Origin: Gallaecimonas kandeliae
Lineage (GTDB): Bacteria; Pseudomonadota; Gammaproteobacteria; Enterobacterales; Gallaecimonadaceae
Assembly (NCBI RefSeq): GCF_030450055.1
Contig: NZ_CP118480.1
Location: 2,445,415-2,509,414, forward strand
DNA length: 64,000 bases
Direction: 5' to 3'
Shown: piece by piece, positions 10,250 to 44,604 of the stretch
How the letters are laid out: each line of letters begins with the position of its first letter
How positions within the stretch are numbered: the stretch's first letter is position 1
Program-made: the position numbers and the translations under genes
The notes under the pieces: model-generated
Told to the model about the DNA's origin: nothing
Databases searched by the model: none
What the model saw: the letters and a program-made list of their open reading frames with translations, nothing else

Positions 10250-10276
10250 AAAAAGCCACGCCTGGGCGTGGCTTAG
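10250..10276 (-). terminator. terminator of the hvf/buf-like operon
   Basis: Ten-base-pair stem AAGCCACGCC / GGCGTGGCTT followed on the minus strand by a run of T. It lies 16 bases after the stop of the 38-residue ORF, and no other minus-strand gene ends here. It therefore marks the end of the operon that begins at 12487. Confidence 0.85.
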
Positions 10277-10291
10277 TTCAGCGCCTCTCTG

Positions 10292-10408
10292 TCAGGAGAA
10301 GTGCTTAACCAGGGTCAGGAGCACCGGCAGAGTCGGCAGGCAAAGCACGGCCAGGATGCCAATGGCGTGCTTGATGTTGAAAGCTTCTTTGAAATGCTGT
10401 TCGGCCAT
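10292..10408 (-). CDS. 38-residue single-span membrane peptide
   Basis: A short gene not obvious from ORF length. The ATG is preceded by AGAGGAG at a good distance. The product is MAEQHFKEAFNIKHAIGI followed by a hydrophobic helix rich in Leu/Val/Pro (about residues 15-34) and a KHFS tail. It follows the DUF2063 gene by 63 bases and is followed after 16 bases by an intrinsic terminator, so it is the last cistron of the HvfA-like operon. I do not recognise a family. It could anchor or assist the maturation enzymes, replacing the DoxX protein often present in such loci, but that is inference. Confidence 0.7.
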   Translation of the reverse strand: MAEQHFKEAFNIKHAIGILAVLCLPTLPVLLTLVKHFS

Positions 10409-10471
10409 GGGGTACTCCTCTGAATAGGTGGCGGCATTCTACCCAATGGATTGATGCAGATCAATTTTTGT

Positions 10472-11206
10472 TCAATTTTTCCGCAATACCGCCTTGCTGC
10501 CGAGGTCGGCCAGGGTTTCTTGCAGGCCAGGCGCAAGCTCCTCTTCCTTCATGCCCAGCCAGGCGGACAGGGCGGCCTTGAGCTCCGCCAGGCGGATGCC
10601 GGGGCGCTGCACCACCAGCTCCAGCAGGGCGGCGGTGGCGGCATTGAGGACGGTGAAACCTATGCCGTCCCGCCAGTCCCGGTAGACCAGCAGGAAGAGG
10701 GGGCTCTCCAGGGGCTCAGTGGGCCTGAAATCAATGCTTATCTGGTGCACCGGCCAAGGGTAGGCGGCCAGCCTGGCGGCGCCGGAAAAACGCAGCGCCG
10801 TCCCGTCATGCAGTTCCCCCAGCGGCTCCCCTTCTTCCTCGGCGCGGCCCACTTCCAACTCCAACCACTCGTAATGGGCAAGCTCGCGGATAAAGGGCGG
10901 ATCGCAGTCCCCGGACTGGAAGGCCGGGGAGTCCAGGTAGTCGAGGAAGGCGCCGCTGATGTCCAAAAAAAGCGGGCTCTTGCAGTCATGGTCGGCATAG
11001 AAGCGCCGGGCCAGGGCCTGCCAGTCGGGGCCCTGGTAGAGGCTTTTGAGCACCGGGAAGGCCGAGGCCAAAAAGCCTTCGACGTTGTTGAAAAAGAGCC
11101 GCCGGTAGATGGCCAGGCGCCGGTCTTCAATACCGGCCGGCGCAGGATGTTGTTGCGGGTCGCGAATATGGGCCATCAAGGCCTCTTGCAAGGCGCGAAA
11201 GTCCAT
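10472..11206 (-). CDS. DUF2063 family protein, MNIO partner (HvfC/BufC-like)
   Basis: 244 residues. The N-terminal domain (about 1-100: [41 protein letters not shown]) is the DUF2063 domain that accompanies DUF692 enzymes and helps present the precursor peptide. The remainder resembles the variable C-terminal part of the family and ends in a predicted winged-helix-like stretch (LRLAELKAAL pattern). The ATG overlaps the stop of the DUF692 gene by one base (TGATG), implying translational coupling and a joint complex. Function is known for the family; here it is inferred. Confidence 0.88.
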   Translation of the reverse strand: MDFRALQEALMAHIRDPQQHPAPAGIEDRRLAIYRRLFFNNVEGFLASAFPVLKSLYQGPDWQALARRFYADHDCKSPLFLDISGAFLDYLDSPAFQSGDCDPPFIRELAHYEWLELEVGRAEEEGEPLGELHDGTALRFSGAARLAAYPWPVHQISIDFRPTEPLESPLFLLVYRDWRDGIGFTVLNAATAALLELVVQRPGIRLAELKAALSAWLGMKEEELAPGLQETLADLGSKAVLRKN

Positions 11207-12039
11207 CAGGCCACCTGCCTTAGCGCCTGCTGCTGGCGGGCATGGATCTCACCCACCTCCGCCAGCAGCTTGTCCAGGGAGGGGATGTTGAAGTCCCTTT
11301 CCAGCAGGGTGGGAAAGACGCCGTGGTATCGGTAGGCCTTTTCCAGCAGTTCCCAGACAGGGGCTATGACGTCGGCGCCATGGGTGTCGACGATAAGATC
11401 AGGCGCCTCCTGGTGGTGGCCGGCGATATGGCCGCAGGCGATGCGGTGGCTGGGCAGCGCCTTGAGGAAAGCCTCGGCATCGTAGCCGTGGTTGATGGCG
11501 TTGACGTGGATGTTGTTGACGTCCAGCAGCAGCTGGCAGTCCGCTTCTTCCAACACCGCCTTGATGAAGTCGCTCTCCGCCATCTCCTGGCCGGGGGCGG
11601 CGTAGTAGGAGACGTTTTCCAAGGCCAGGGGCCGCTCCAGCACCTGCTGCACTTCCCTGACCCGGGCGGCCACATGGCGCACCGCTTCTTCGGTGAAGGG
11701 AATGGGCATCAAGTCGTAGAGATGGGCGTTGCCGGAACAAAAGGAGAGGTGTTCCGAGTAGAGCCGTACCTGGTGCAGATCCAGGAACGCCTTGAGTTCC
11801 TTGAGGAAAGCCCTGTCCAAGGGGGCCGGGCCGCCGATGGAAAGCGACAGGCCGTGGCAGTTGACGGTGTGCTGTTCGGTCAGGGCCCGGAAACGGCGGC
11901 CCAAGGGGCCACCGAGGCGCATCCAGTTTTCGGGGGCCACCTCCAGGAAAGCAAGAGGCTCGGGCAAGGCCTGCCCTTCCAGCTCCCCCATGAAATCCCG
12001 GCGCAGCCCAAGGCCGGCCCCCTGTACGGAAAAAGTCAT
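11206..12039 (-). CDS. DUF692 multinuclear iron oxidase (MNIO), HvfB/BufB-like
   Basis: 277 residues from the ATG at [13 protein letters not shown]; the open frame upstream overlaps the precursor gene and contains its terminator. TIM-barrel MNIO with the expected metal-ligand motifs in order: [49 protein letters not shown] and LERDF. Members oxidise Cys residues of ribosomal peptides to oxazolone/thioamide or thiooxazole groups that bind copper. The partner precursor (12083-12487) and DUF2063 protein flank it. The substrate assignment is by context. Confidence 0.92.
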
Positions 12040-12052
12040 CTCAGCCCCCAAA

Positions 12053-12075
12053 GAAAAGGCGGGCCGAGGCCCGCC
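12053..12075 (-). terminator. intercistronic hairpin/attenuator between precursor and MNIO genes
   Basis: Perfect eight-base-pair stem GGCGGGCC / GGCCCGCC with a two-base loop. On the minus strand it is followed by TTTTCTTT. It lies in the 43-base gap between the precursor stop and the MNIO start. It should end most transcripts after the precursor, giving more substrate than enzyme. Confidence 0.75.
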
Positions 12076-12082
12076 GCCAGAC

Positions 12083-12487
12083 TCAGATGGCGCTGCCGCA
12101 CTGGCCTTCTTCGTGGGCCTTGGTGCCCTCGCCGCAGTTGCCTTCTTTGGCCTTGGCATCGCTCATGGCCTTGCCCTTGTCGCCGCCACAGTTGCCTTCC
12201 TTCTTGGCCTTGGCATCGGCCTTCATTTGGGCTTTGTCGTCGGCCTTCATCTTGGCCTTGTCGCCGCCGCACTGGCCTTCTTTGGCCTTGCTGGCCTGGG
12301 CCTTGCCTTCTTCGGCCGCGCTGCCGCCGCACTTTGCCTCACCACACTTGGCCTCCAGGCTGGAAACCTGGTAGCCCTTTGCCAGATCCAGCATGGCAAA
12401 GGGGGAAGCCTGGGCCTCGGAGGCCGTGGCCAGTGAGCCAACGACCAGAGCGCCCAGCGCCGCCGCGACAGTGTTACGTGCTTTCAT
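12083..12487 (-). CDS. HvfA/bufferin-like Cys-rich RiPP precursor
   Basis: 134 residues from the ATG at [12 protein letters not shown], with an AAGGAA ribosome site. A Sec signal peptide (about residues 1-28, ending ATASEAQA) is followed by a low-complexity Lys/Ala/Asp-rich chain. All six Cys (48, 53, 73, 100, 118, 130) sit in near-identical motifs: EAKCG twice, then EGQCG, EGNCG, EGNCG and EGQCG. This is the repeated EGxCG signature of periplasmic HvfA/bufferin substrates of DUF692 oxidases, which bind copper after modification. A simple metallothionein is the alternative, but the neighbouring MNIO genes argue for a RiPP. Confidence 0.88.
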
Positions 12488-12648
12488 GTGATATTCCTTT
12501 TCGTACTTGACTGAGGTTGCGACATGGATGGCCGGTTGCCAGTTTGTCATGTCAGGTCACAGCAACAGACCCGACCCATCCCTTATCTCTTTCATTCGCC
12601 ATCAAATACCGTACACTTGCCGCCCGGTTTTGTCTCGAGGTTCGGGTG

Positions 12649-15571: not shown

Positions 15572-18199
15572 TTAGATGCGCCAGCTCAGCTTGGCGTAAG
15601 CGTAGGTACCCAGAACGTCGTAGACTTCCGGTACTGTGTTGGCGTTGGAGTAGTGCGGCACGAACTCCGGATCTTGGTCGAACAGGTTGTCCACACCCAA
15701 GGTCACGGTAGCCTTGTCGTTGAAGTGATAGCTTGCAGAGACGTCGTGGTAGAACACAGCGTCGGTCTTGAAGCTCTGCAGCTCCAGATCCTTCATGCCG
15801 TCGATGAAACGGACACGCCAGGAGGCATCCCACTTGTCGCCGCTCAGCTTCAGGCTGGCGTTGTGCTTCCACTTGGCATAGGCGCCGTTGTCACCGCTGA
15901 TGGTACCGGCGTACTCGCGGCCATCCTGCTTGAAGGAATCCAGGTAGCTGGTATCCCAGGTGACAGTCCAGCCCAGGCCCAGGGCGTCGAAGGCATAGCG
16001 CATGTTCAGGTCGACACCCTTGCTCTTCTGCTCACCGACGTTGGTCAACGGACGAACCATGTGGTTGATCTTGTTGGACAGAGAGCTACGGCTCAGCTCC
16101 AACAGGTCACAGGCCGCAGTCTCACCGGCATAGCAACGGTCCAGATACTGCTGGCCATCGATGCGGACAATGGCGTCGGTAACCTTGATCTCGTAGTAGT
16201 CGAGGGTGGCGGAGAAGCCGTTGATGAAGCTCGGGCTCCAGACGGCACCCAGGGTCAGGGTGTCGGCCTGCTCGGGCTTCAGCTCTTTGTCGGACAGCCA
16301 GGTGTTCTCGATCTGGTTATCGAACTCGTAAGTGGTATCACCGATCTCGGCGTTACACTTCTGATACAGAGTGGTGCTGGGATCTTTGGAACCGTAGCCA
16401 GAGCAAGGATCGTCCAGGTAGTCGAAGCTACCGACGTTACCGCCGTACAGTTCGGAAACTGTGGGGGCGCGGAAGGCGGTAGAACGCACGCCACGCAGCA
16501 TCAGGTCGTCGTTCAGGCGCCAGGTCAGACCCAGTTTCCAGGTGCTGTCATTGCCGAAGGTGGAGTAGTCGAAGTAGCGGATGGCCGCTTCAACAGACAG
16601 ATCCTTGGCCAGGAAGACGTCGGACAGCAGCGGCACGGCGAATTCGGCGTAAACCTGGGTGGTGTCGTAGCTGCCAGAAGTGGGATCCTGCTGGGACTGG
16701 GCGCTGTCACCGGCGACGGTCACGGCGTCAGGCTGGAACCAACCGGATTCACGACGGTACTCGGCACCGGCGGCGAAGCCCAGCATACCGGCAGGCAGCT
16801 CGAACAGGTCACCGGAGATGTTACCGGCAACGACGTTCATCTCGTTACCACCGGTAGAGGTATCGGTGTAGTTGACGTAGTCCAGCAGGTCCTGGCTCAG
16901 CTGGCCTTCGGGTACGAGCCAGTTACCGCAGGGTACACCGTTCTCTCCGCAGATGTCGGGATTGGTGGTTTCCGCCAGTTTGCGGGTGTTCTGCAGGTTG
17001 TGAACCTTGCTGACAGAGTCATTACGACCCCAGGTGTAGGACAGGTCCCAATCCAGGCCGTTATGGATGTCCAGGGAGCCCTGAGCGCCCAGCACGAAAC
17101 GGGTGGTGTCCACTGTCTGCTCGTAGCCACGGGGGCCGGCATCGGTCATTCGACGAGCGTACTCGACCTTCTGACCGTCGAAGGGGGTGCTCGGATCGTT
17201 TACGGTGATCTCCACGCCGCTGACGGGGGAAGGTGCCAGTTGCTGGCTGGACATACGCTTGGTATGGAAGAACTCGGTAAACAGCTGGGTATCGTCGGTC
17301 AGCTCGTAATGGCCGCTACCGAAGAGAGAAGCGCGCTTCTGGGGGGTGTACAGGTATTGGAAGGGTACGTAGTTGTACCTGCTTGTGGCTTCCACCCATT
17401 GCTGGCTGCCCTGGTCGAATTCGTAATCTTTGCCGCCGAAGCTAACGAGACCACCGGGGATGACGGCACTGCCGCTGCCACAGGCACCTTCGGCATTTTT
17501 CTTGCGAACGCAGGAAGACCAGTCGCGCTCGCTCTGCTTGGCCAGGCCGCGGTCCAGGTAGCTGGCGCCGATCACGATGTTGCCGCGGTCGAAGCTACCA
17601 CCCATCAGCATGCTGATCTCGGCGGTGTTGGCGTCGCCCTCTTTGGTGCCGCCGTAGCTGGCATCCATCTGCAGGCCTTCGAAGTCCTTCTTGGTGATGA
17701 TGTTGATAACACCGGCGACGGCGTCAGAACCGTAGACGGCGGAGGCGCCGTCCTTCAGCACTTCGATGCGTTCGATCATGGCGACGGGGATGGAGCTCAG
17801 GTCGACGGAGGCGTCGGCACCGGAACCGGAGTTCACCATGCGGCGGCCGTTGACCAGCACCAGGGTACGGGCTTCGCCCATGCCGCGCAGGTTGACGCGG
17901 GAAACACCTTCACCACCGTTATTGGTGGAGGAACCGGTAGGAGCGCCGGCGCTGAAGGTGCTTTGGGACAGCACGTCGGCTACTGAGGTGTAGCTGCCGG
18001 CGGCCAGGTCCTTGGCGGAAATAACGGAAACCGGGCTAGCGGTTTCCATGTCGGTACGCTTGATGCGAGAGCCGGTGACTTCGATGCGCTCCAGATCGGA
18101 ACCGTCATCGGCAGCAAGAACAGGCATGGTGACCGCAGCGGAAGCACTGGCGAACAGTGCCCAGCTGACAGCTTTGGAAGTAATGGTTTTTGACATCAT
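15572..18199 (-). CDS. TonB-dependent outer membrane receptor (copy 1)
   Basis: 875 residues. A signal peptide (about 1-29, ending MPVLA-A) is followed by ERIEVTGSRIKRTD, a TonB-box/plug-entry motif shared with the two receptors at 24612 and 27873. The plug domain (about 45-165: VADVLSQ, LRGMGEARTLVLVNGRRM, IEVLKDGASAVYGSDAVAGVINIIT) precedes the 22-strand barrel. The protein ends in YAKLSWRI, close to the usual barrel-final strand. It belongs to the large Oar/Caulobacter-like class associated with peptide or glycan uptake. The ligand is not evident. It lies downstream of the TonB operon but has its own promoter and terminator. Confidence 0.93.
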   Translation of the reverse strand: MMSKTITSKAVSWALFASASAAVTMPVLAADDGSDLERIEVTGSRIKRTDMETASPVSVISAKDLAAGSYTSVADVLSQSTFSAGAPTGSSTNNGGEGVSRVNLRGMGEARTLVLVNGRRMVNSGSGADASVDLSSIPVAMIERIEVLKDGASAVYGSDAVAGVINIITKKDFEGLQMDASYGGTKEGDANTAEISMLMGGSFDRGNIVIGASYLDRGLAKQSERDWSSCVRKKNAEGACGSGSAVIPGGLVSFGGKDYEFDQGSQQWVEATSRYNYVPFQYLYTPQKRASLFGSGHYELTDDTQLFTEFFHTKRMSSQQLAPSPVSGVEITVNDPSTPFDGQKVEYARRMTDAGPRGYEQTVDTTRFVLGAQGSLDIHNGLDWDLSYTWGRNDSVSKVHNLQNTRKLAETTNPDICGENGVPCGNWLVPEGQLSQDLLDYVNYTDTSTGGNEMNVVAGNISGDLFELPAGMLGFAAGAEYRRESGWFQPDAVTVAGDSAQSQQDPTSGSYDTTQVYAEFAVPLLSDVFLAKDLSVEAAIRYFDYSTFGNDSTWKLGLTWRLNDDLMLRGVRSTAFRAPTVSELYGGNVGSFDYLDDPCSGYGSKDPSTTLYQKCNAEIGDTTYEFDNQIENTWLSDKELKPEQADTLTLGAVWSPSFINGFSATLDYYEIKVTDAIVRIDGQQYLDRCYAGETAACDLLELSRSSLSNKINHMVRPLTNVGEQKSKGVDLNMRYAFDALGLGWTVTWDTSYLDSFKQDGREYAGTISGDNGAYAKWKHNASLKLSGDKWDASWRVRFIDGMKDLELQSFKTDAVFYHDVSASYHFNDKATVTLGVDNLFDQDPEFVPHYSNANTVPEVYDVLGTYAYAKLSWRI

Positions 18200-18714
18200 G
18201 ACATCGTTCCCTTTGGCGATATTTTGTTCGCATTAGGATTTGTGGTTGTTTTCTTGGTTTTAAAAAACCGCATTGATACTTAAACAGCGCCACATTAATG
18301 TCAACGCAACAACGGGATGCAAAAAAGTTAAAAACGTTAACCAAAGGTCACCGCTACAACAATAAAATATCTCCGCTTTGATGAAAAATGGGTGACGACA
18401 GAAAAACATCCTTTTTAGGCAATGGCTTAGCAAAAAATAGCGTCTATCGATAAAGTTTCAACCGACATTAAAAAACTTATGTCTCAGGCGCGTTTATGAG
18501 ATCAACATCACAAAAAACCGGCCAAATCACTGCATCACAAACAAAATAAAAACAAGCACGCAACTTTTGAAAAATAAAAAAAACCCTCCAGCATCAACTA
18601 AATAAAATATCACTAAAGGAAAAACGCAAGCCACGTGAATAAAGCGGCAATAGATAGTTTTTTGTTATTTAGTAAAGACAACTGAAGCGAAAGGAAAGGT
18701 TATTGAGAGGAATT
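18200..18714 (-). other. AT-rich gene-free region upstream of receptor 1
   Basis: About 515 bases, strongly AT-rich compared with the flanking genes, with many A-runs. It holds the receptor promoter (see 18276-18304) and no credible ORF or RNA gene on either strand. The A-tracts suggest curved DNA or binding of a nucleoid protein. Confidence 0.5.
18276..18304 (-). promoter_or_regulatory. putative sigma-70 promoter of receptor 1
   Basis: On the minus strand: TTGACA, 17-base spacer, AAGTAT. The -35 is perfect and the -10 weak. It would give a leader of about 70 bases before the receptor ATG. Confidence 0.5.
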
Positions 18715-18738
18715 AAAAAAGCCCCCGAAGGGGCTTTT
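18715..18738 (-). terminator. terminator of the TonB operon
   Basis: Stem AAAAGCCCC / GGGGCTTTT with loop CGAA and a T-run on the minus strand, starting one base after the stop of the TPR gene. Confidence 0.88.
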
Positions 18739-18739
18739 A

Positions 18740-20005
18740 TCAGAACTGAACACCTTTACGTGTTGCTTCATCCTTGACGTAGGATTCCCAGCTGGTAGCC
18801 GTCTTCTTGGTATCATCGAAGCCCTTCGCCAGGCGAAGCTGCTTGATGGCACCTTTGTAGTCGTGCTTGAAGAAGTAAGCCTGTGCCAAGGCCAGGTAAG
18901 CCCTGCCAGGTTGAGACAGGTTGCCTGCATCGATGGCCTTGTTCAGGGCCACAATGGCTTTCTCATACTTCTCCTGCTCCAGCAGCAGGTTACCCTGCTT
19001 CAGGAAGTGCTTACCGTCCTTACCAGCCTCACCGGCACGACCATAGTATTCAATGGCCTTGTCCAACTCCTTGGCGTTGTGCCAAGTGTTGGCCAGTATC
19101 GCAAGAGAGCTCTCGTCTTCCGGAATAAGACCGGCTTTCATGAACTTCTCTTGGATGATAGCGGACTTGTAAGGAATGTCCTGGCTAGCATACAGCTGGG
19201 CAAGAACCTTGCCTTCGTTTTCCTTGGTCAGGAAACCTTGCTTGTAAGCCAGTGCATAGGTAGCGAGCGCCTTATCTGAGTCGTTGACCAGCATGTAGGT
19301 CTGACCCAGTTGCAGCCACCACTGCTTCTCCTTGGGATCCAGCTTCACCAGCTCTTCCAGAACCGGAACCATCTGCTTGTACATCTTACGGTCAAAGAAG
19401 GCCGCCAGTTTCAGCACATAGGGGTTCTTGTTCGGTTTTTTGTAGAGCTTGATGGCCTTGTCTGCAAAGGGCACTACCTTATCCAGCTCTTTCATCTGGT
19501 AGTAGGCCTGAGCCATCATGGTGAAAACGTCTGCACTTTCCTTACCGGAAAAGTCCATCCACTTCTGCAGGTAGGTCAAGGACTCACGCCATTTCTCACG
19601 CTGCTGAAGCATCTGGCCGACCTGGCGCAATACGCCTTCCTGCTCAGTCTGGTTCAGAGCGCCAGAGTCTGCAGCACGTTTGAGGTACTGCAGGGACTGG
19701 TCCCACTTTTCTTGGTAATAGTAAATGGTACCGATGAAGCGATCGACGTAGGCCTTGTCGTAACCGTCGTGGGGCGACATGTCCTGCAGGATCTTCAAGG
19801 CACCGGCATAATCCTCTTTGCTGAAGAGGTCATAGGCCTTGGTGACGGGACGCCCGGCGGACTCGGACAGAGCCTGAGTCTTACGCTTCGGAACCTCCTT
19901 TACCTGCACCACATTGTCATCTGCCAGCGCGGACTGCGGCAGGGTGACTGCGCCGGCCAGTGCCAGCACAGCCAGTAAAGAAGAAGCGAGCTTTTTCATC
20001 TTCAT
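18740..20005 (-). CDS. periplasmic TPR protein of the TonB operon
   Basis: 421 residues. A signal peptide (about 1-28, MKMKKLASSLLAVLALAG.. ending SALA-DD) is followed by a chain of tetratricopeptide repeats (for example YDLFSKEDYAGALKILQDM, YYYQEKWDQSLQYLKRAA, QGNLLLEQEKYEKAIVALNKA, AQAYFFKHDYKGAIKQLRLA). It is the last gene of the TonB2-type cluster; its ATG overlaps the tonB stop (TAATG). Homologues accompany TtpC/ExbB2/ExbD2/TonB2 in Vibrio, Shewanella and relatives. A scaffold role in the periplasm is inferred. Confidence 0.88.
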   Translation of the reverse strand: MKMKKLASSLLAVLALAGAVTLPQSALADDNVVQVKEVPKRKTQALSESAGRPVTKAYDLFSKEDYAGALKILQDMSPHDGYDKAYVDRFIGTIYYYQEKWDQSLQYLKRAADSGALNQTEQEGVLRQVGQMLQQREKWRESLTYLQKWMDFSGKESADVFTMMAQAYYQMKELDKVVPFADKAIKLYKKPNKNPYVLKLAAFFDRKMYKQMVPVLEELVKLDPKEKQWWLQLGQTYMLVNDSDKALATYALAYKQGFLTKENEGKVLAQLYASQDIPYKSAIIQEKFMKAGLIPEDESSLAILANTWHNAKELDKAIEYYGRAGEAGKDGKHFLKQGNLLLEQEKYEKAIVALNKAIDAGNLSQPGRAYLALAQAYFFKHDYKGAIKQLRLAKGFDDTKKTATSWESYVKDEATRKGVQF

Positions 20006-20643
20006 TACTTTTTACCCTCCAGTTTGAAGTCCAGCTGGACTGTCAGACCAGGTTGTTTAACAGGCTTGCCGTCAACGATCTTCGGCTTGTACTTCCACTT
20101 GGCCAGCGCACGCTTGGCTTCGCGGTCGAAGATACGCTTGGGTTCGGCGTCGATGACTTCGATGTCCTCAACACCGCCGACTTCGTTGATGGTGAAGCTC
20201 AGTTTTACCCAACCTTCACGACCGTCACGGGCCGCTTCCACAGGATACTTGGGATCCATACGGAAGATGGGGGTTGCTTCGCCATCACCACCCACGGGAC
20301 CACCGATAGAGGGTGCACCACCGATAGCAGGGCCACCTCCACGGGAGGAGAAGTCCAACTTGGGCAGATTCAGATTCTCCATAGGCGTTTGCGCCTTGGG
20401 AGTATCATCTGGAATCGCCTTCATGGGCTTTGGCGGCTCCTTCGGCGGCGGCGGCTTCTTGGGCAACTCCCGCGTCTTGTTCTGGGGAGGCGTTTCCTGT
20501 TTGTCCATGGAGATGTCGATAACAGGGGCGTCAGCGCTAGGGTTGAAGCGCTTGGCACCGCCGGAAATCAAGTAGGCCATGAACCAAATCAGGGCAAACG
20601 TGACCACAATCCCCAGCAATATACTTGCTATGGATCTAGCCAT
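20005..20643 (-). CDS. tonB: TonB energy-transducing protein
   Basis: 212 residues. An N-terminal membrane anchor (about 5-27, IASILLGIVVTFALIWFMAYL) is followed by a short Pro/Lys-rich spacer (ELPKKPPPPKEPPKPMKAIP) and a TonB C-terminal domain (about 120-212: FRMDPKYPVEAARDGREGWVKLSFTI ... RALAKWKYKPKIVDGKPV). The short spacer and the YPVEA..REGWV motif fit the TonB2 class. It links the ExbB/ExbD proton motor to TonB-dependent receptors such as the three encoded nearby. It lies two bases after exbD. Confidence 0.95.
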   Translation of the reverse strand: MARSIASILLGIVVTFALIWFMAYLISGGAKRFNPSADAPVIDISMDKQETPPQNKTRELPKKPPPPKEPPKPMKAIPDDTPKAQTPMENLNLPKLDFSSRGGGPAIGGAPSIGGPVGGDGEATPIFRMDPKYPVEAARDGREGWVKLSFTINEVGGVEDIEVIDAEPKRIFDREAKRALAKWKYKPKIVDGKPVKQPGLTVQLDFKLEGKK

Positions 20644-20645
20644 AA

Positions 20646-21050
20646 TTAACTCCCAGGTGTTGCAGCCACGGAGATCTTGTCGATACCCGCTGCCTTGACT
20701 TGGTCCATAACCTGGACGACAACACCATGCTTGGTATCTTTATCGGCCTGGATCACGACGCTGGATTCGGGTTGCTCAGCCAACATACGTTCTACGTTGG
20801 CACGAACACGCTCGACATCCACGACGCGTTTTTCCATGTGGACTTCGCCATTGGCGGAAACACCAATAAAGATATTGGCAGACTTCTTCTTGGTAGCCGT
20901 AGCCGCCGTCGGGCGGTTTACGTCAATACCAGACTCTTTGACAAAAGAGGTGGTTACGATGAAGAAGATCAGCATGATGAACACGATGTCGAGCATCGGA
21001 GTCATGTCAATGCTGGCTTCTTCCTCTTGCCGTACACGTTTACGTGCCAT
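20646..21050 (-). CDS. exbD: ExbD/TolR biopolymer transport protein
   Basis: 134 residues. An N-terminal cytoplasmic stretch (ARKRVRQEEEASIDMTPMLDIVFIMLIFFIVTTSF) contains one membrane helix with the essential Asp of the MLDIVF motif (about residue 20) that carries protons. The periplasmic domain ends DKISVAATPGS. It is the third component of the TonB2 motor, between exbB (13-base gap) and tonB. Confidence 0.96.
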   Translation of the reverse strand: MARKRVRQEEEASIDMTPMLDIVFIMLIFFIVTTSFVKESGIDVNRPTAATATKKKSANIFIGVSANGEVHMEKRVVDVERVRANVERMLAEQPESSVVIQADKDTKHGVVVQVMDQVKAAGIDKISVAATPGS

Positions 21051-21062
21051 AGCGACTCTCTC

Positions 21063-21590
21063 TTAGTGATGCGGCATGCTATCGACAAGGCGATGGCTTG
21101 CAACTTTAACCTTGGCCTCAAGACGGGAGCTGAAGAACACCCCGGACAAGGCCGCGACCATGCCCGCCATGGTGGGGACAGTGGCCATGGAAATGCCGGA
21201 TGCCATCAGTCGGGGGTTACCCGTACCCGTATTCGCCATGATCTCAAACACGTGCACCATACCGGTTACCGTGCCCAAGAGCCCCATCAGCGGGCAAACC
21301 GCCACCAGGGTCTTGATGAGTTGCATGCGCGCGTTCAACTGTTCATTGGCTTGGGAGATCCATGCCTCACGGATTCTATGCGCGTACCAGGATGTGGTGT
21401 CCTCCCGAGCGTCCCATTTACCCACAACCTCTTTTGCCAGTTTAGGAAAAGCGGATGTGACGTACATGTAACGTTCGATCATCAGAACCCACATGATGCA
21501 CAATACGAGGGCCAGCCAGTAGAGGACTATGCCCCCCGTATTCATAAAATCCCTGACAGATTCCCAAAGCTCTATCAGGAAGAGCATCAT
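21063..21590 (-). CDS. exbB: ExbB/TolQ proton channel protein
   Basis: 175 residues with three predicted membrane helices: about 20-38 (GGIVLYWLALVLCIMWVLMIERY), 95-115 (LVAVCPLMGLLGTVTGMVHVFEIM) and 130-152 (MATVPTMAGMVAALSGVFF). The short form is typical of ExbB2. Its ATG overlaps the stop of the upstream larger MotA/TolQ/ExbB protein by one base, so two ExbB-like channel subunits are made together. Confidence 0.94.
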   Translation of the reverse strand: MMLFLIELWESVRDFMNTGGIVLYWLALVLCIMWVLMIERYMYVTSAFPKLAKEVVGKWDAREDTTSWYAHRIREAWISQANEQLNARMQLIKTLVAVCPLMGLLGTVTGMVHVFEIMANTGTGNPRLMASGISMATVPTMAGMVAALSGVFFSSRLEAKVKVASHRLVDSMPHH

Positions 21591-22948
21591 TACTTAGACT
21601 CCTTCTCCGCGTGTTCCGCGATAAGACCGGTGGCCTGCTCCTCGATGAGGTGGATCAGGGACTGGCTACGGGAGTACACGATGGAGTGCAGGAAGATCAG
21701 CGGCAGAGCAGCAACCAGACCCAGTACGGTGGTTACCAGAGCGGTAGAGATACCGCCGGCCATGATCTTCGGATCACCGGTACCGAACAGGGTGATGGAT
21801 TGGAAGGTCGCGATCATACCGGTAACGGTCCCCAGCAGACCCAGCAGCGGGGCTACGGCAGCCAGTACCTTGATGATGGCAACGCCACGCTCGATGCGGG
21901 GAGTTTCCTTCAGGATGGCTTCGTCCAGTTTCAGCTCCAGGGTTTCAACGTCAACGTTACGGTTGTTTTCGTAAACCTTGAGGATGCGACCCAGGGGGTT
22001 GTTGTCGCTGGGAGTGTCGGACTTGAGCTGTTTGCGAATAGCAGCGCTGATGCCGCCCAGAACGAACAGACGCTCCAGAACGATCAGCAGGCCCAGACCC
22101 AGTACGCCGGTGATGATGTAACCGACGGTACCACCTTGATTGTAACGCTCAAGCAGAGTCACTTTCTGCGTCATCAGGGTCAGGATGGTGCCACGAGAGG
22201 GGTCGACGAAGAGGGCAGAGTAGCCAGACTTGTTCTTGGCATAATCGGCAACAGAGTCGGTAATGTAAGACTCAGGCTGACGAGACAGCTCGCTGATACC
22301 ACCGGCCTCGGCGTTGTAGACCAAGAACTCTTTGTCGTTCATCAGGTTGAAGGTACCCACGCGGGTCACTTCCATCTGCTTCTTCTCACCGGAAGTGGTG
22401 GTTACGGTAGCAGGGAACTTGACGACTTCACCAGAAGCGGTCATTTCCTTTTGCAGGGCGAACCACAGGTCTTCCAGCTGGGGCATCTCAGGCAGTTCTT
22501 TGCTCTGAGCCAGTTCGCTCATTTCCTTATCACGGCCAGGGTACTGGGCAGAGATAATGGAAGTTTGGAAGCGGGAGTTGGCATCGCCAGCGACCTGACG
22601 AACCACACCGAACATTTCACCCATGTTGCCTACGGCCAGGGTCAGCTTCTCTTCCAGCTCAGCCAGAGTCTTCTCGTTGTCAGAAAACTGGGCTTCCAGC
22701 TTCTTGCCACGAGCCTGTTCGTCGGCCAGATCACGCTTGGCCTTGCTCAGCAGGGCCTGCTTGTCGGCGCGCTCGGACAGGAACTCCTGCTCACGCTCTT
22801 TGTTGATCTTGCCATCAGAGAGGCGATCTTTTTGAACCTGTTGCAGCAGTTGCTCCAGGGTCTTGGCCTGGGGAGCAGCTGCCATTACCGGCTGGGCAGC
22901 CAGCATAAGACCCGCAGCCAGGGCCACGCTCTTCAGTACGGTTTTCAT
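21590..22948 (-). CDS. TtpC-type MotA/TolQ/ExbB protein with periplasmic extension
   Basis: 452 residues, far longer than ExbB. A signal-like N terminus (1-23, ending VMA-AAP) precedes a coiled-coil periplasmic region (about 28-115, rich in Glu/Lys/Gln), then a domain of about 150 residues. The C-terminal MotA/TolQ/ExbB channel has helices near 265-285, 355-375 and 400-425 (VAPLLGLLGTVTGMIATFQSI). This is the architecture of Vibrio TtpC, required for TonB2 function. It overlaps the DUF3450 gene by four bases (ATGA). Confidence 0.92.
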   Translation of the reverse strand: MKTVLKSVALAAGLMLAAQPVMAAAPQAKTLEQLLQQVQKDRLSDGKINKEREQEFLSERADKQALLSKAKRDLADEQARGKKLEAQFSDNEKTLAELEEKLTLAVGNMGEMFGVVRQVAGDANSRFQTSIISAQYPGRDKEMSELAQSKELPEMPQLEDLWFALQKEMTASGEVVKFPATVTTTSGEKKQMEVTRVGTFNLMNDKEFLVYNAEAGGISELSRQPESYITDSVADYAKNKSGYSALFVDPSRGTILTLMTQKVTLLERYNQGGTVGYIITGVLGLGLLIVLERLFVLGGISAAIRKQLKSDTPSDNNPLGRILKVYENNRNVDVETLELKLDEAILKETPRIERGVAIIKVLAAVAPLLGLLGTVTGMIATFQSITLFGTGDPKIMAGGISTALVTTVLGLVAALPLIFLHSIVYSRSQSLIHLIEEQATGLIAEHAEKESK

Positions 22949-23727
22949 TCGGCAGACTCCGGCGCTTCGATGGGCAGTTTCATGAGGTTCGGGGCAGCTT
23001 GGCCACGAGCCAGTTTAACCGCTTCACGGATAGAGGTGATGTATTCGTCACCCACCTTCTCCCAGGCTTTGGTTTCTTTGTTCCAGAACCAGGCATTCTT
23101 CTGGTCCAGGGACATAGCCAGGAAGGCCACACGGCCAACGTGAACGAAGTCTACAGAGAGTTGCTTGCCGTCAACCGGCAGTACGCCCTGGTAGGCGGAG
23201 CTCTTGGAACCGTATTCCACTTCGATCTGGTAGGCCTCAAGGATGCGGCGGTACTTCTCGGAGGTGGAGACAGCAGAGTCTTCCATCATGTCCTTGAGCT
23301 TCTGAACGCGCTGGGTACGCTCTTCCTTCTCGAAAGGAATATCCAGGGCGACGAATTTCTCAAGGGTATCGATCATCTTGTACATCAGCGGCACGACGCC
23401 TTGCTGCGTCTTGGTGATGTTGTTGATCTGCTTGTTATAACGACCCATTTCGGCCTGCTGACTCTCAATCAGCTTGGCGATGTGGTCATTGTAGATTTTC
23501 AGGTTGTCGTTCTCGGCAACGGTGGAGCGGTACTCACCGATGAGATCACGAGTCTGATCTGAAAGCTTGTCTATCTTGGCCTGTGAGGCCGCGGCGGCGT
23601 CATTGATATTTTTCTCAACGTCTTGAGAAGAGACAAGAGGATCGGCCGCAAAAGCGGCGCTACCGGCGAACATAAAGGCACCGGCAAGGGCCGCAGCGAG
23701 TGTGCTTCTCTTGCTTAGTCTGGACAT
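22945..23727 (-). CDS. DUF3450 periplasmic coiled-coil protein
   Basis: 260 residues from the ATG at MSRLSKRSTLA; the longer frame would need a TTG. A signal peptide (about 1-28, ending AAFA-AD) leads to a coiled-coil region (about 35-100, AAAASQAKIDKLSDQTRDLIGEY...) and a globular C-terminal part with QVEYG-like and FVHVGRVAFLAMSLD motifs typical of DUF3450. It is the first gene of the DUF3450-ttpC-exbB-exbD-tonB-TPR operon, the conserved TonB2 arrangement. Its biochemical role is not known to me. Confidence 0.9.
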   Translation of the reverse strand: MSRLSKRSTLAAALAGAFMFAGSAAFAADPLVSSQDVEKNINDAAAASQAKIDKLSDQTRDLIGEYRSTVAENDNLKIYNDHIAKLIESQQAEMGRYNKQINNITKTQQGVVPLMYKMIDTLEKFVALDIPFEKEERTQRVQKLKDMMEDSAVSTSEKYRRILEAYQIEVEYGSKSSAYQGVLPVDGKQLSVDFVHVGRVAFLAMSLDQKNAWFWNKETKAWEKVGDEYITSIREAVKLARGQAAPNLMKLPIEAPESAE

Positions 23728-23872
23728 AGTTCCCAACCAACGTCTTATCGTTATAGATCCCTACTCACCTAAGGGCGGTAGGAGTTCGGAGGATTGCACG
23801 CCAGGCACAGTGCGCCCGGGGTACACCAGCACTGGATAATTCCAGATAAGTAACAGGGTGTCAACACGGCCC

Positions 23873-23902
23873 AAGCCCGCTCCCCAGTAAGGAAGCGGGC
23901 TT
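23873..23902 (-). other. hairpin at the end of the oxygenase gene
   Basis: Stem AAGCCCGCT / AGCGGGCTT with a 12-base loop directly at the stop of the 2OG oxygenase gene. No T-run follows on the minus strand, so termination would be weak. About 145 bases then lead to the DUF3450 start. Confidence 0.45.
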
Positions 23903-24552
23903 CACGACGTCAGCCGACACCAGGAATTAAACGCAATTGTGATCCGCTTCCCATTCCCAAAAAATGGCGTGACCTCATGATTCAAGTATGAGGGGAAGAG
24001 CACCAGGGTTCCAGGCGAGGTAGGCAAGTTAATGGATCCCGTATTGAAAGGTGCCTGCAGACCGCTGTTACCAGGGTCCAAGAACATGTTCGCACCCGGC
24101 TTGGTGTCGAGGAAGCGCAGCACACCATTGTCCTTTCGACCTTCATCAGGCTGGCCATCATCGACAAAATAGACACCGGACCAGGAAGACATCGGATGAG
24201 TGTGAGCAGAGATATATCCGCCCGATTCTGTGATGTGGAACCAAGCTTCGTTCTGGATCACCAGCTTGGCCATGGTGGCATCATCATAGCCGTTCAAGGT
24301 TTTTATGAGCGTCGCTAAGGCCTTCATGCAGATGTTACGAAGTGTCTTGATAGCAGGCTGCTCCCAGCCAAACAGATCCAACTCGCTCTCGAAAATGCCT
24401 ACCTGGATAGTCTGGGTTGGGACTGGGTTGCGGTACTTGTGCGGGTCTTGTTCCGCCTCAAGGATAACCGCCTTCAGTTCCTCATTCAGCGCTTGAGCAT
24501 TGTCTACCTGATGCAAACAAAGTGGCGAAGCAAAAATGGGGGTAATTTTCAT
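23902..24552 (-). CDS. putative 2OG-Fe(II) oxygenase, TIGR02466-like
   Basis: 216 residues from the ATG at MKITPIFASPLCLHQ (AAGGAAAA ribosome site); the longer frame needs a TTG. The pattern AHTHPMSSWSGVYFVDD, then VLFPSYLNHEVTPFFGNGKRITIAFN gives the His / distal His / Arg layout of the double-stranded beta-helix oxygenases. The family is often encoded beside large TonB-dependent receptors and tryptophan-halogenase-like genes in marine bacteria. Its substrate is unknown. It begins 18 bases after the terminator of receptor 2, so it is probably expressed by read-through. Confidence 0.82.
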   Translation of the reverse strand: MKITPIFASPLCLHQVDNAQALNEELKAVILEAEQDPHKYRNPVPTQTIQVGIFESELDLFGWEQPAIKTLRNICMKALATLIKTLNGYDDATMAKLVIQNEAWFHITESGGYISAHTHPMSSWSGVYFVDDGQPDEGRKDNGVLRFLDTKPGANMFLDPGNSGLQAPFNTGSINLPTSPGTLVLFPSYLNHEVTPFFGNGKRITIAFNSWCRLTS

Positions 24553-24569
24553 CGCGTTTTCCTTCAATA

Positions 24570-24597
24570 AAAAAAGGCTGCAGAGCAGCCTTTTTTA
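24570..24597 (-). terminator. terminator after receptor 2
   Basis: Stem AAAAAAGGCTGC / GCAGCCTTTTTT with loop AGA and T-runs both ways. On the minus strand it lies between the receptor stop (24612) and the oxygenase ATG (24552). Confidence 0.88.
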
Positions 24598-24611
24598 TTG
24601 CCTTCAGAGGC

Positions 24612-27362
24612 TTAGAACTTGGCGCTTACGCGGAAGTACACGAAGCGATCCAGGTTGGCCCTGTAGGTGGTGACGTCGAAGTTGTTGGAGGACAGCTCGT
24701 CATCCTCAGACTCCGGAGTCGGCTTCTTGTTGAAGATGTTGTCAACGCCCAGAGTGAACTGGAGGTTGTAATCTTGCCAGAAGTAGCCAGCCTGTACGTC
24801 ATGATAAACCACGGCAGCCGGGTTGCTCAGGTAGAAATCGTCTTCAGCATAGGGCTGGTCGATAGTCATGGCGCTGATGTAGCGGGTTTCCCAGCTGGCA
24901 GACCAGGCATCGTAGTTCCAGTCAATAGACAGGTTGGCCTTGACGCGGGGGAAGCCACCCTCGGCAGTGTCACCAAACTCCATGCCAGCACGTTTGATCT
25001 TCTTGCTGCCACCCTGCGGGTCAACCACGGTATCAGTGAAGTCATCTACATAGTTGCCGTCCAAGGCAATCTTGAAGTCACCGAAGCCAGTGCCGAAGCG
25101 GTAGGCAGCGGTGAAATCGTAGCCCTTGGCACGGGTCTTACCGGCGTTCTGCAAGCCGTCCTGCAGGTCGGTTACGTCGCCGGTAGTGGCGTCGCGGGTG
25201 ACCAGATTACAGAGAGTAGTGCCGGTATCGGCACAGGTGTTGAGGATAAGCTGAGTCGACAGACGGGTGATGGTGTCCTTCACCTCGATGTCGTAATAAT
25301 CGACAGTGACGTCGAACCCATCCAGCCAGCTGGGGTTGTACACGGCGCCCACAGTGAAGGAGTCGGAAGTTTCCGGCTTCAGGTCGGGGTTGGCGACGCG
25401 CACGGCACGGATCTGGGAGTTAGCCTGATGATAGGTTGTAGGAACACCGGCACAGCCAGGCTTACCAGCACCACCGTCATTACAGGGGTCGTTCAGGGTA
25501 TCGAAAGAGTCTGTCTGGCCCTGATACAGGTTAGAGATGGACGGTGCACGGAAGCCTTGGGCCTTGGTGGCGCGCAGCAACAGGTCATCCATCGGACGGT
25601 ATTCGATACCCACCTTGGTGGTGGTCTTGGAACCGAAGGTGCTGTGGTCAGAATAACGAGCGGCCAGTGACAGGTTCAAGCTATCGATGACAGGTACGGA
25701 GAATTCCGCGTAAGCTTCTTTGATGTTGAAACCACCGGCGGTAGCACTACGCTGGCTACCAGAAGAGGAACCGTTTTGAGTCAGCGGCTCGGGAGTGTCG
25801 TAACCAAACTCATCACGGCGCTCTATGCCGAAAGCGCCTTGGACATAGCCGGCAGGCAATTCGAACAGATCGCCAGTCACGTTGGCGGTCCAGTCGCGCA
25901 GGGTCTGACCAGAGTTATCAACACCTGTATAGGTGATGTAGTCGACCATATCCTGGGTGATGGAACCGACGCCGCCGAACAGGTTCAGGGGCACACAGCC
26001 GGCAGTGGCGTTGCACTTGTCAACAGGGCCCAGGGCCGTTTTGATGGCGTCGAAGTTCAGCAGGCCAGTGGTGGTATCGGTGGAGGTGGACTTACCGTAG
26101 ATGTAGTTCACATCCCAAGTCCATGAGGTATCACCGAAAGAGCCGCTCAGGCCGGTGGACCAACGGTAGGTGTTGACGTCCTGACGGAAGACACGGTTAC
26201 CCGCTTCGATCATACGGCGCTGGATACGCACGTTGCCAGTGTAAACATCACCCGGGTTGTTAGCACCATCGGCCCACAGCGTGGTGCCCCAGATGTTGTA
26301 GGGGTTAGAGGCATCGACGTTGACGGAGCCAGGGATGATACCGAACTGAGAACCGATGGTCAGCGGCATGGCGGCCAAAAACTGGCTGGACTGACGATTG
26401 GTGAACAAGAAGTCGGTGTTCAGGCGGACACTGTCGGTGATGTCGTAGTTGCCCAGGGCGTAGACACTCTTACGATCCTGCGGGGTCTGCAGATAGTTGG
26501 CAGGGGCGTAGTTGTAGTAGTCGTCGCCAGTGAAGGCCCTGAAGTCGCTTGATTGCTTGCCATCTTCACCTGTAGTCAGGGTGGCAACATGCGGCATGTT
26601 GGAGCCAGGAATGGCGTCAAAGTTGGTGAAACGGCCCTGAGGGGTAGTGGAGCTGTAGCCGTACTTGGAGATATCACGGTCACCAGCCCAGGTCGGATCC
26701 TGAGTCACGTAGGAAGCAGCGATCAGCATGTTGCCTTTTTCGCCGTTGGAACCCACGGTGAAATCGTAGGAGCGAGTAGTGCCGTCCTTCTTGGTCAGGT
26801 TGCGGCCCCAGTAGGCAGTAGCCTCGGCACCGTCGAAATCATTCTTGGTGATGATGTTTACAACACCGGCGATAGCATCGGAACCGTAAACGGCAGAAGC
26901 ACCGTCTTTCAGGACTTCAATACGTTTAACGGCAGCCAGCGGGATGGTGTTCAAATCAACAGAAGCATCGACACCACCACCACCGATACCGTTGATCATA
27001 CGGCGGCCGTTCAGCAGGACCAGTACACGCTGAGAGCCCAGGTTGCGCAAGTCGATGTTGGTGGCACCGGTACCGCCGTTGTTCACGGAGGTGTTAAGAG
27101 CAGAACCTGCACCCGGCAATTCTTGAAGCAGATCGCCCAGGCTCTGAATACCGGTTTTCTGGATAGCAACCTGGTCGATAACAGTTACCGGAGAAGCGCC
27201 CTCGATATCGGTGCGCTTGATGCGAGAACCGGTAACTTCGATACGTTCAACAGACTGATCACCATCCGCAGCGTAGGTGGGGATGGCGGTAATAGCAGCG
27301 GTGGTTGCACCAGCAAGCATTGCCCAGCGAACAGAGTTCGCCAACTTACTATTGCGATACAT
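24612..27362 (-). CDS. TonB-dependent outer membrane receptor (copy 2)
   Basis: 916 residues. A signal peptide (about 1-31, ending PTYA-AD) is followed by ERIEVTGSRIKRTD. The plug domain (about 45-170) has LGDLLQELPGAGSALN, LRNLGSQRVLVLLNGRRM and KDGASAVYGSDAIAGVVNIIT, followed by a barrel ending YFRVSAKF. Extra Gly/Asn-rich extracellular loops fit an Oar-like receptor for bulky ligands. It shares the same plug blueprint as copies 1 and 3 but its loops differ, so ligands probably differ. A likely promoter lies at 27456-27485. Confidence 0.93.
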   Translation of the reverse strand: MYRNSKLANSVRWAMLAGATTAAITAIPTYAADGDQSVERIEVTGSRIKRTDIEGASPVTVIDQVAIQKTGIQSLGDLLQELPGAGSALNTSVNNGGTGATNIDLRNLGSQRVLVLLNGRRMINGIGGGGVDASVDLNTIPLAAVKRIEVLKDGASAVYGSDAIAGVVNIITKNDFDGAEATAYWGRNLTKKDGTTRSYDFTVGSNGEKGNMLIAASYVTQDPTWAGDRDISKYGYSSTTPQGRFTNFDAIPGSNMPHVATLTTGEDGKQSSDFRAFTGDDYYNYAPANYLQTPQDRKSVYALGNYDITDSVRLNTDFLFTNRQSSQFLAAMPLTIGSQFGIIPGSVNVDASNPYNIWGTTLWADGANNPGDVYTGNVRIQRRMIEAGNRVFRQDVNTYRWSTGLSGSFGDTSWTWDVNYIYGKSTSTDTTTGLLNFDAIKTALGPVDKCNATAGCVPLNLFGGVGSITQDMVDYITYTGVDNSGQTLRDWTANVTGDLFELPAGYVQGAFGIERRDEFGYDTPEPLTQNGSSSGSQRSATAGGFNIKEAYAEFSVPVIDSLNLSLAARYSDHSTFGSKTTTKVGIEYRPMDDLLLRATKAQGFRAPSISNLYQGQTDSFDTLNDPCNDGGAGKPGCAGVPTTYHQANSQIRAVRVANPDLKPETSDSFTVGAVYNPSWLDGFDVTVDYYDIEVKDTITRLSTQLILNTCADTGTTLCNLVTRDATTGDVTDLQDGLQNAGKTRAKGYDFTAAYRFGTGFGDFKIALDGNYVDDFTDTVVDPQGGSKKIKRAGMEFGDTAEGGFPRVKANLSIDWNYDAWSASWETRYISAMTIDQPYAEDDFYLSNPAAVVYHDVQAGYFWQDYNLQFTLGVDNIFNKKPTPESEDDELSSNNFDVTTYRANLDRFVYFRVSAKF

Positions 27363-27825
27363 AGTTTTCTCCCTGGACCATTTTCATGGCTTCTTGTTTC
27401 GTACTTGCAATGTCTTGCAAGTCATTGTTATTGGGTCTAGCCCAACCGTCGACCAACTATAAACATACGAAACGATGACAGTCAACACCACGTTCACAAC
27501 ACTAACAACACCAGCAGAACCGCGCCATTACTGCGCAACCGTAGCGTCAACTCAGGTAACAAGGGCCATGTTTTGTATCAACAAACAGTGTCGTTGATTA
27601 CTACCCAGCCCCGGTCGCGGGGCTCAGGGTGCCGACAACCTAGGGCTGGAGACTAGGCTCTGCCAGTACAGAGCAGTCACTTGCTCGCAGCTATATTTGC
27701 AGAACTTATGGGACATTAATGAAGGGTTACATACGAGGACAGCTGAGGCTACTTCTGTAATGGTGGCGGGTGCGTAAAGCCTTCAACGAGTAAGAGGGCA
27801 AGAAAGTTCCGCATCAAGACCCTTT
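27363..27825 (-). other. gene-free region upstream of receptor 2
   Basis: About 460 bases between receptors 2 and 3. It contains the receptor 2 promoter; the rest (27490-27820) shows no ORF with a ribosome site and no convincing RNA structure. Confidence 0.5.
27456..27485 (-). promoter_or_regulatory. putative sigma-70 promoter of receptor 2
   Basis: Minus strand TTGACT, 18-base spacer, TATAGT, about 90 bases before the receptor ATG. The match is good, although the spacer is one base longer than optimal. Confidence 0.55.
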
Positions 27826-27828
27826 AAA

Positions 27829-27854
27829 TAAAAAAGGCTACCCGAAGGTAGCCT
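27829..27854 (-). terminator. terminator after receptor 3
   Basis: Stem AGGCTACC / GGTAGCCT, loop CGAA, followed on the minus strand by a T-rich run; 18 bases past the receptor stop. Confidence 0.82.
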
Positions 27855-27872
27855 CTCATTCAGCGCACCGGT

Positions 27873-30704: not shown

Positions 30705-30882
30705 GGTGTTGCTCCCTGCTACGGTTTTCTCTAATTAAGCTCACGGCAAAACTACAGCCATATTTCTGAAGCAAATTAACAGTAGTTCAAATCCGAAATT
30801 TTTCCTCATTTCAAAATGTTACCACTTGCAATTCGCTGGGCGCTTTCTACACTGTCGCCCTCCCCATCAGCCACTGAATGCC

Positions 30883-42774: not shown

Positions 42775-42862
42775 TGGCGGTGAGAGGGGGATTCGAACCC
42801 CCGATACGTTGCCGTATACACACTTTCCAGGCGTGCTCCTTCAGCCACTCGGACACCTCACC
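42775..42862 (-). tRNA. tRNA-Ser (anticodon GGA)
   Basis: 88 bases on the minus strand, from GGTGAGG at the 5' acceptor to CACCGCCA at the 3' end with CCA encoded. Long variable arm typical of serine tRNAs (after CTGGAAAGT), T-arm GGGGGTTCGAATCCCCC, anticodon GGA within CTGGAAA. D-arm GTGGCTGAAGG. Confidence 0.96.
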
Positions 42863-42914
42863 ATATTGTGGTTACACCGCTTTCGCTCTGCGTTTAGCGC
42901 TGCAACGGGGCGCT

Positions 42915-42943
42915 ATATTAGGGGCAAGGTCGGAAGCGGTCAA
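42915..42943 (-). promoter_or_regulatory. promoter of tRNA-Ser
   Basis: Minus strand TTGACC, 17-base spacer, TAATAT, then a GC-rich discriminator (AGCGCCCC). The -35 lies inside a palindrome AAGCGGT-CA-ACCGCTT (42934-42949), a possible regulator site. Confidence 0.7.
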
Positions 42944-42993
42944 CCGCTTTTTCAATTCATTCAGTGCGTTCGGCGAGGTTTTGAGCAGATGGC

Positions 42994-43021
42994 AAAACGC
43001 CGCCCTGAGGCGGCGTTTTTT
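42994..43021. terminator. terminator after nadA
   Basis: Eleven-base-pair stem AAAACGCCGCC / GGCGGCGTTTT, loop CTGA, overlapping the nadA stop; T-runs on both strands. Confidence 0.88.
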
Positions 43022-44082: not shown

Positions 44083-44139
44083 GAGCTTGAAACCACGTTA
44101 CTGCTTGACTAGGGGCATTATACGCCCGGGCGCCCATAA

Positions 44140-44166
44140 CAAAAAACCCCGCAAAAGCGGGGTTTC
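44140..44166 (-). terminator. terminator of the tRNA-Lys array
   Basis: Nine-base-pair stem AAACCCCGC / GCGGGGTTT, loop AAAA, with a T-run on the minus strand, seven bases beyond the last tRNA-Lys. Confidence 0.88.
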
Positions 44167-44173
44167 TTGATGA

Positions 44174-44249
44174 TGGTGGGTCGTGCAGGATTCGAACCTG
44201 CGACCAATTGATTAAAAGTCAACTGCTCTACCAACTGAGCTAACGACCC
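44174..44249 (-). tRNA. tRNA-Lys (TTT), copy 1 of 4
   Basis: 76 bases, 5' GGGTCGTTAGCTCAG, anticodon loop CTTTTAA, T-arm CAGGTTCGAATCCTG, 3' CGACCCACCA with CCA encoded. Identical to the three other copies. Last copy before the terminator. Confidence 0.97.
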
Positions 44250-44352
44250 ATCTTGTTCTTCAATTGCCGTCCAGAGCTGCCAGTCATCCTGACGTTCTGT
44301 CCGGCTCGCCGTCCTGCCTCGCGTTCGATGCTGCGTATTCCTCGCATCTCAC

Positions 44353-44371
44353 CCAACTGAGCTAACGACCC
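44353..44371 (-). repeat. truncated tRNA-Lys 5' end, remnant 1
   Basis: 19 bases identical to the 5' end of tRNA-Lys (GGGTCGTTAGCTCAGTTGG); they stop after the start of the D-loop and continue into GTGAGATGCGAGG. The same junction recurs in remnants 2 and 3. Confidence 0.85.
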
Positions 44372-44425
44372 GAATTGTCTCTTGGGTATGCACCGCGAGG
44401 ATGCCGGGCCAAGCCCCTTGAATAA

Positions 44426-44501: not shown

Positions 44502-44604
44502 ATCTTGTTCTTCATTTGCCGTCCAGAGCTGCCAGTCATCCTGACGTTCTGTCCGGCTCGCCGTCCTGCCTCGCGTTCGATGCTGCGTATTCCTCGCATC
44601 TCAC

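Follow-up and report, generated by a model that had tools for sequence, protein, structure and literature searches.

The closest described relatives of the locus analysed here are RiPP clusters encoding an MNIO (DUF692), a DUF2063 protein and a Cys-containing precursor. The oxazolin cluster HvfABC(X) of Haemophilus influenzae encodes a precursor, HvfA, that has six Cys and, in the available text of PMC13419390, carries them in three AEGKCGEGKCG motifs. The fontiphorin cluster FonABC and the captophorins combine an MNIO and a DUF2063 protein (PME1) with a repeat precursor, and diverse motifs around Cys are on record (PMC13097082, available sections). For the bulbicupramide cluster MmrABC of Microbulbifer, the available sections of PMC12538549 describe three genes, without DoxX, and a precursor with five to eight Cys in EGKCG units, arranged as paired cassettes with Lys. 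Characterised EGKCG products bind copper according to the same portions of these reports (PMC12538549, PMC13097082, PMC13419390). Finally, the bufferin clusters BufABC (Buf1/DUF2282, Buf2) likewise pair an MNIO and a DUF2063 protein with a Sec-exported Cys precursor.

We analysed a stretch of 64,000 nucleotides (the window) from Gallaecimonas kandeliae, whose genome is a single contig of 3.84 Mb. The minus strand of the window carries, in this order, genes for a precursor, an MNIO, a DUF2063 protein and a 38-aa peptide, followed by DUF454 and apt; dusC lies upstream in divergent orientation. The features of the locus are as follows.

12083..12487, minus strand: precursor peptide (HvfA-like), 134 aa, with six E[AG]xCG sites, a signal-like N-terminus and a leader
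12058..12075, minus strand: terminator-like hairpin in the gap between precursor and MNIO, GGCGGGC-CTCG-GCCCGCC then TTTTCTTT
11206..12039, minus strand: MNIO (DUF692, HvfB family), 277 aa; PF05114, NF003818
10472..11206, minus strand: DUF2063 partner (HvfC / PME1), 244 aa; PF09836, PF22106, NF050145
10451..10464, minus strand: FNR-like box TTGATctgcATCAA upstream of the 38-aa peptide
10292..10408, minus strand: 38-aa single-span membrane peptide with its own FNR-like box and hairpin, a neighbour judged to lie outside the RiPP operon

The MNIO start was set at 12039 by alignment with relatives; the in-frame ATG further upstream, at 12159, would make the gene run into that of the precursor. The one-base overlap between the MNIO and DUF2063 genes reported in the preliminary description is real: both share base 11206 within a TGATG. 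Other parts of the window were noted in passing. A block at 12585-12622, in the gap between dusC and the precursor and nearer to dusC, is conserved in five genomes of the genus (GGCAAGTTTACGG..., TTATTGAAAGA); the region 18000-32000 has a GC content of 0.49-0.56, compared with about 0.63 around it, and contains a TonB/ExbB/DUF3450 group, TonB-dependent receptors and a 2OG-Fe(II) oxygenase; and four tandem tRNA-Lys(ttt) genes and one tRNA-Ser lie at 42775-45047.

Profile searches confirmed the families that had been proposed for both enzymes. The MNIO scored 344 bits against PF05114 (cut-off 25) and 425.5 bits against NF003818 (HvfB; cut-off 360), which places it in the HvfB family. The DUF2063 protein scored 92.9 bits against PF09836 (cut-off 27.2), 72.4 bits against PF22106 (cut-off 27) and 272.4 bits against NF050145 (HvfC; cut-off 142), which places it in the HvfC family. 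Among solved structures, the closest to them are 3bww and 3dee, respectively. The precursor, on the other hand, gave no Pfam match at E values up to 1, DUF2282 included, and stayed below both HvfA models, reaching 26.8 against the equivalog NF050188 (cut-off 95) and 13.9 against the repeat domain model NF050137 (cut-off 19.5). Failure against NF050188 says little, since only one of nine precursors scanned passes it (that of genome G003, see below); NF050137 was passed by seven of the nine, the failing two being those of the window and of genome G001.

These results divide the earlier label of an HvfA/bufferin-like locus. Its HvfA/oxazolin side stands for the MNIO/DUF2063 cluster, while bufferin membership was rejected: the precursor has no DUF2282 match, the MNIO scores 267 against NF050167 (BufB; cut-off 310), and the Cys motifs differ, although the enzyme pair and a putatively Sec-exported Cys precursor are common to both. 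Methanobactin membership was rejected as well, with 40.6 bits for the MNIO against TIGR04159 (MbnB; cut-off 325). With HvfABC(X) the locus shares the gene order, the HvfB and HvfC families, the signal-like N-terminus and the six Cys, but it lacks an adjoining DoxX gene (HvfX), its precursor falls under the HvfA models, and one pair plus four isolated EG[QN]CG sites stand in place of three paired motifs. With FonABC it shares the MNIO, the PME1-type partner and a repeat precursor, and with MmrABC the set of three genes without DoxX; from both it differs in that its sites are mostly single and Lys-less. Also present is the combination by which captophorins are recognised (PMC13097082), a Cys-repeat precursor together with an MNIO-PME1 pair. 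We thus consider the cluster, with a probability of about 85%, to be a chromosomal RiPP operon of hvfABC type that belongs to the captophorin/oxazolin kind. Counting against this reading are the low precursor scores, the four isolated sites and the lack of a copper-related gene or recognised metal-regulator site among the neighbours and in the upstream alignment of the dusC-precursor gap from five genomes of the genus. The system itself is not new: the cluster can be recognised as one of a known kind, with a variant precursor.

The locus is conserved among relatives. An MNIO match was found in all five genomes of the genus (the window's and G001 to G004), in each with the precursor and DUF2063 genes adjoining, and the order precursor-MNIO-DUF2063 as well as the dusC and apt neighbours were kept in 5/5. 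The best 80 named loci by MNIO match, which include Shewanella, Pseudoalteromonas and Ferrimonas and, among those with apt, also Rheinheimera, had the DUF2063 gene in 80/80, apt in 41/80 and both dusC and apt in 35/80. Given this synteny and the retention of the enzyme pair in the genus and beyond, the cluster looks like a long-standing occupant of the dusC-apt chromosomal site that has been inherited vertically. A mobile origin was rejected, as a near search of a plasmid collection gave no match and the site is kept in all five genomes of the genus.

The preliminary description regarded DoxX as a usual component that was missing here and replaced by the small membrane peptide. Neither point held. 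No DoxX gene was found beside the cluster; the genome has four DoxX matches, all at other sites. Using a purpose-built model with three seeds, we detected DoxX-like frames in 8/91 loci with the window's type of MNIO, some of which stop early at contig ends, compared with 9/16 loci with other MNIO types, indicating that the model works and that absence is normal in this branch. The 38-aa peptide was rejected as a DoxX substitute because of its own FNR-like box and its distribution: within the genus it occurs in the window, G003 and G004, while none was detected in G001 or G002, where hvfABC is retained, and conversely G013 and G037 carry it between dusC and apt with neither MNIO nor DUF2063 in the 8 kb read. 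The small peptide gene, which also has a hairpin of its own, is thus independent of the RiPP operon. Found in 12/40 relatives searched, it belongs to a family of single-span peptides of 37-45 aa with the consensus FKxPFN..YF.GF...LIPTLPASL, located near dusC-apt in several families. A perfect TTGATnnnnATCAA lies at most 150 nt upstream in 19/32 copies read, and the gene is probably oxygen-regulated; in this reading the L137 peptide was taken out of frame. Pfam yielded only a chance melittin match (E 0.1, in 1/11 members) and NCBIfam no match, and the peptide looks like an undescribed oxygen-regulated small protein.

The precursor is where the locus departs from its relatives. All six Cys lie in E[AG]xCG motifs, as first noted in the preliminary description; shuffling the mature part 100,000 times never gave more than two such motifs. 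By eye, the N-terminus has n-, h- and c-regions of a Sec-like signal ending SEAQA/SPF, followed by a leader of the PF...GY type that is also seen in 58 of 61 named relatives among the matches listed. Six Cys are not in themselves unusual, and none of the six sites has lost Glu at -3, Cys or Gly at +1. In four of the six, however, Gln or Asn stands where canonical EGKCG has Lys, and these same four are isolated. This is the most distinctive point of the locus, and one absent from the preliminary description.

For comparison we assembled 61 precursors of named loci, obtained from 60 of the 80 loci with L042 added by hand and with L080 represented by a fragment only. Among the matches listed, these 61 contain 617 Cys, of which 528 are preceded by Lys, 597 are followed by Gly and 469 lie in pairs spaced by five residues. 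Isolated sites as such are not special: they are common, as shown by the many Shewanella precursors among the matches listed that carry mostly isolated EGKCG, and 8/38 apt-syntenic precursors listed have fewer than 70% of their sites paired. Every site has Lys in all 38 apt-adjoining precursors among these matches, one of them a fragment. Lys-poor precursors do exist outside the genus, 14 of those listed having Lys at or under about half of their sites, and 12 of these 14 come from Methylobacter, Methylococcaceae or Methylococcales. The latter resemble the window's precursor in Lys-poor sites such as EGACG, EGSCG and EMSCG, but those among the matches listed have no EGQCG/EGNCG arrays and lie outside the dusC-apt neighbourhood; single occurrences are EGQCG in L083 and EGNCG in L107, the latter not from the named Methylococcales. 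The unusual feature is therefore a Lys-poor precursor within a dusC-apt locus, one that has drifted from the usual repeat and is missed by current database models. In five loci of this survey (L053, L088, L090, L099 and L117, three of them Methylophaga), the place upstream of an HvfB-type MNIO is taken by a protein of about 250 aa instead of a CG-repeat precursor. These proteins are related to each other, have a signal-like start and a conserved LLCGCPI (for example L088, 3052-3804), and are possibly another kind of MNIO substrate; none of the three that were scanned matched Pfam above cut-off.

Within the genus the precursors differ in Lys and in pairing. All 16 sites of G003 have Lys and are paired; in G004 Lys is present at 8/8 and pairing at 2/8, in G002 at 9/10 and 2/10, in the window at 2/6 and 2/6, and in G001 at 0/4 and 0/4, such that G002, G003 and G004 together have Lys at 33/34 sites. 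A tree of DusC and Apt placed G003 outside the other four members (100/99) and paired the window with G004 (90/88) and G001 with G002 (88/85), the two latter values lying below the program's star. With moderate support, this topology suggests that most paired repeats were lost once, in the ancestor of the four species, and that Lys was lost twice within the genus. The MNIO+DUF2063 tree left the four species without a resolved order, with a long G001 branch (0.62, compared with 0.27-0.36 in the other four members of the genus).

Between the window and G004, the NG86 method gave dN 0.180 and dS 0.833 for the MNIO and dN 0.309 and dS 1.105 for the DUF2063 gene; on these two rows, in which dS is rough, dN/dS is well below 1 and both genes are under purifying selection. 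In the available text of PMC13097082, FonB Arg15, Arg16 and Phe250 are tied to substrate choice and Asp249 is catalytic. The corresponding MNIO residues Arg13, Arg14, Asp249 and Phe250, equated with those of FonB by motif, as well as the checked His, Glu, Asp and Asn positions, were kept in 66/66 MNIOs, and none of the 66 showed a change at the FonB-type specificity residues.

One other position varies. Position 178 (in NNIYVN) is Tyr in 80 of 85 MNIOs, His in the window, L042, L107 and L114, and Phe in G001. For four of these five the precursor is known, and each has at least one non-Lys site. In a first grouping, non-Tyr178 was found in 3/16 MNIOs with Lys-poor and 1/50 with Lys-rich precursors (p 0.041), and in a second, by any non-Lys site, in 4/19 compared with 0/47 (p 0.0054); both tests are post hoc and ignore kinship and the number of positions looked at. 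Tyr178 is kept in 15/19 MNIOs whose precursor has a non-Lys site. In the alignment MbnB has Phe and 3bww Tyr at this position, so Phe is evidently tolerated in a working MNIO. The association is a lead found after the fact. It could point to a natural switch of substrate code, in which the MNIO would act on E[AG]xCG sites that stand alone and have no Lys, and would have changed alongside its substrate, a reading that we regard as possible but doubtful.

The gap between precursor and MNIO contains a further feature. Terminator-like sites are no more frequent in the window than expected by chance (3 observed, 3.2 expected). A hairpin with a T-run was nevertheless present in this gap in 37/65 loci, compared with 1.3 expected from shuffles. 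Among the matches listed, 34/60 named loci had it, with control counts for the same 60 loci of 0 within an equal length of the MNIO gene, 2 upstream of the precursor and 1 after the DUF2063 gene. Opposite-strand hairpins were seen in the gap in 8/60 of the listed named loci, a count above zero because strong hairpins are nearly symmetrical. The hairpin was detected in 30/38 apt-syntenic loci compared with 4/22 others among the matches listed. Within the genus, the window, G003 and G004 have it, and at the threshold used none was detected in G001 or G002. We propose that it may serve as a leaky terminator that lowers the enzyme relative to the precursor. A terminator was not mentioned in the MNIO papers listed by the literature search, nor were hairpin, attenuation or stem-loop in the available text of PMC12452194 and PMC13097082.

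By analogy with the characterised systems, we infer the following working. Because of the leaky terminator behind its gene, the precursor would be made in excess. The DUF2063 protein (HvfC) would bind its leader and hold it in the cytoplasm, where the iron enzyme HvfB would oxidise each E[AG]xCG Cys to a 5-thiooxazole with loss of 4 H. The modified peptide would then be exported by Sec and, once in the periplasm, bind copper or a similar soft metal. In the window's lineage, the usual paired EGKCG-EGKCG repeat has shrunk to a single pair and four isolated sites, with Lys before Cys becoming Gln or Asn. The expected product is accordingly described as a periplasmic peptide with 5-thiooxazoles; both the Cys oxidation and the copper buffering would follow those of its relatives (PMC13097082, PMC12538549, PMC13419390), and copper is a reasonably probable main ligand. 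How many sites would be modified is less clear from the literature. In the available portions of the two reports, FonBC accepts Ala, Arg and Thr for Lys and rejects Phe and Glu, Gln and Asn are not among the replacements described, and a single-repeat peptide was left unmodified (PMC13097082); with MmrBC, exchanging one Cys of a pair for Ala did not prevent modification of the other, although a Cys in that setting is not isolated in the strict sense (PMC12538549). Given these mixed results, modification of all six sites is plausible, and no firmer than that.

A modified peptide might also serve a role other than copper buffering, be it with another soft metal, in redox or stress responses or in metal acquisition. 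The available text of PMC12452194 considers further metals in the case of bufferins and points to partner genes of a redox type, and that of PMC13097082 calls the physiological role of EGKCG peptides open. The neighbours of the operon, moreover, include no copper gene. As the characterised EGKCG products nonetheless bind copper in the reports cited above, we consider such a role rather unlikely.

Alternatively, the locus may be a decaying copy in which only the leader-proximal pair is still modified and the isolated Lys-less sites drift, the lineage needing little of the product; G001, with four sites, no Lys and no pair, would be the next stage. The single repeat that FonBC left unmodified agrees with this, as do the faster G001 enzyme branch and the lower Cys number of the Lys-poor precursors (6 and 4, compared with 8, 10 and 16 in their congeners). 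Against it, Glu, Cys and Gly are kept at all six sites, the active-site positions of the MNIO are intact, dN/dS is well below 1, and mostly isolated sites are carried by many Shewanella precursors too. On balance we find this decidedly unlikely. It is highly improbable that the precursor stays unmodified as a Cys-rich periplasmic protein resembling metallothionein, with the adjoining MNIO pair serving a different substrate: the genome's one MNIO match leaves room for other substrates of that enzyme, but the order precursor-MNIO-DUF2063 is kept in 5/5 genus loci and the leader resembles those of known substrates.

For an hvfABC-type operon of the captophorin/oxazolin kind, these findings bear on the family in several ways. 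The precursors of the window and of G001 escape the HvfA models despite a canonical locus, so that cluster counts made with a precursor model are too low. The hairpin in the precursor/MNIO gap suggests a simple route to more substrate than enzyme. The single-repeat result with FonBC raised the question whether 5-thiooxazoles can form without Lys and paired repeats, and the genus provides a natural setting in which to test it. If the switch in substrate code were true, the five species would be a ready-made series for studying how an MNIO reads the residue before the Cys.
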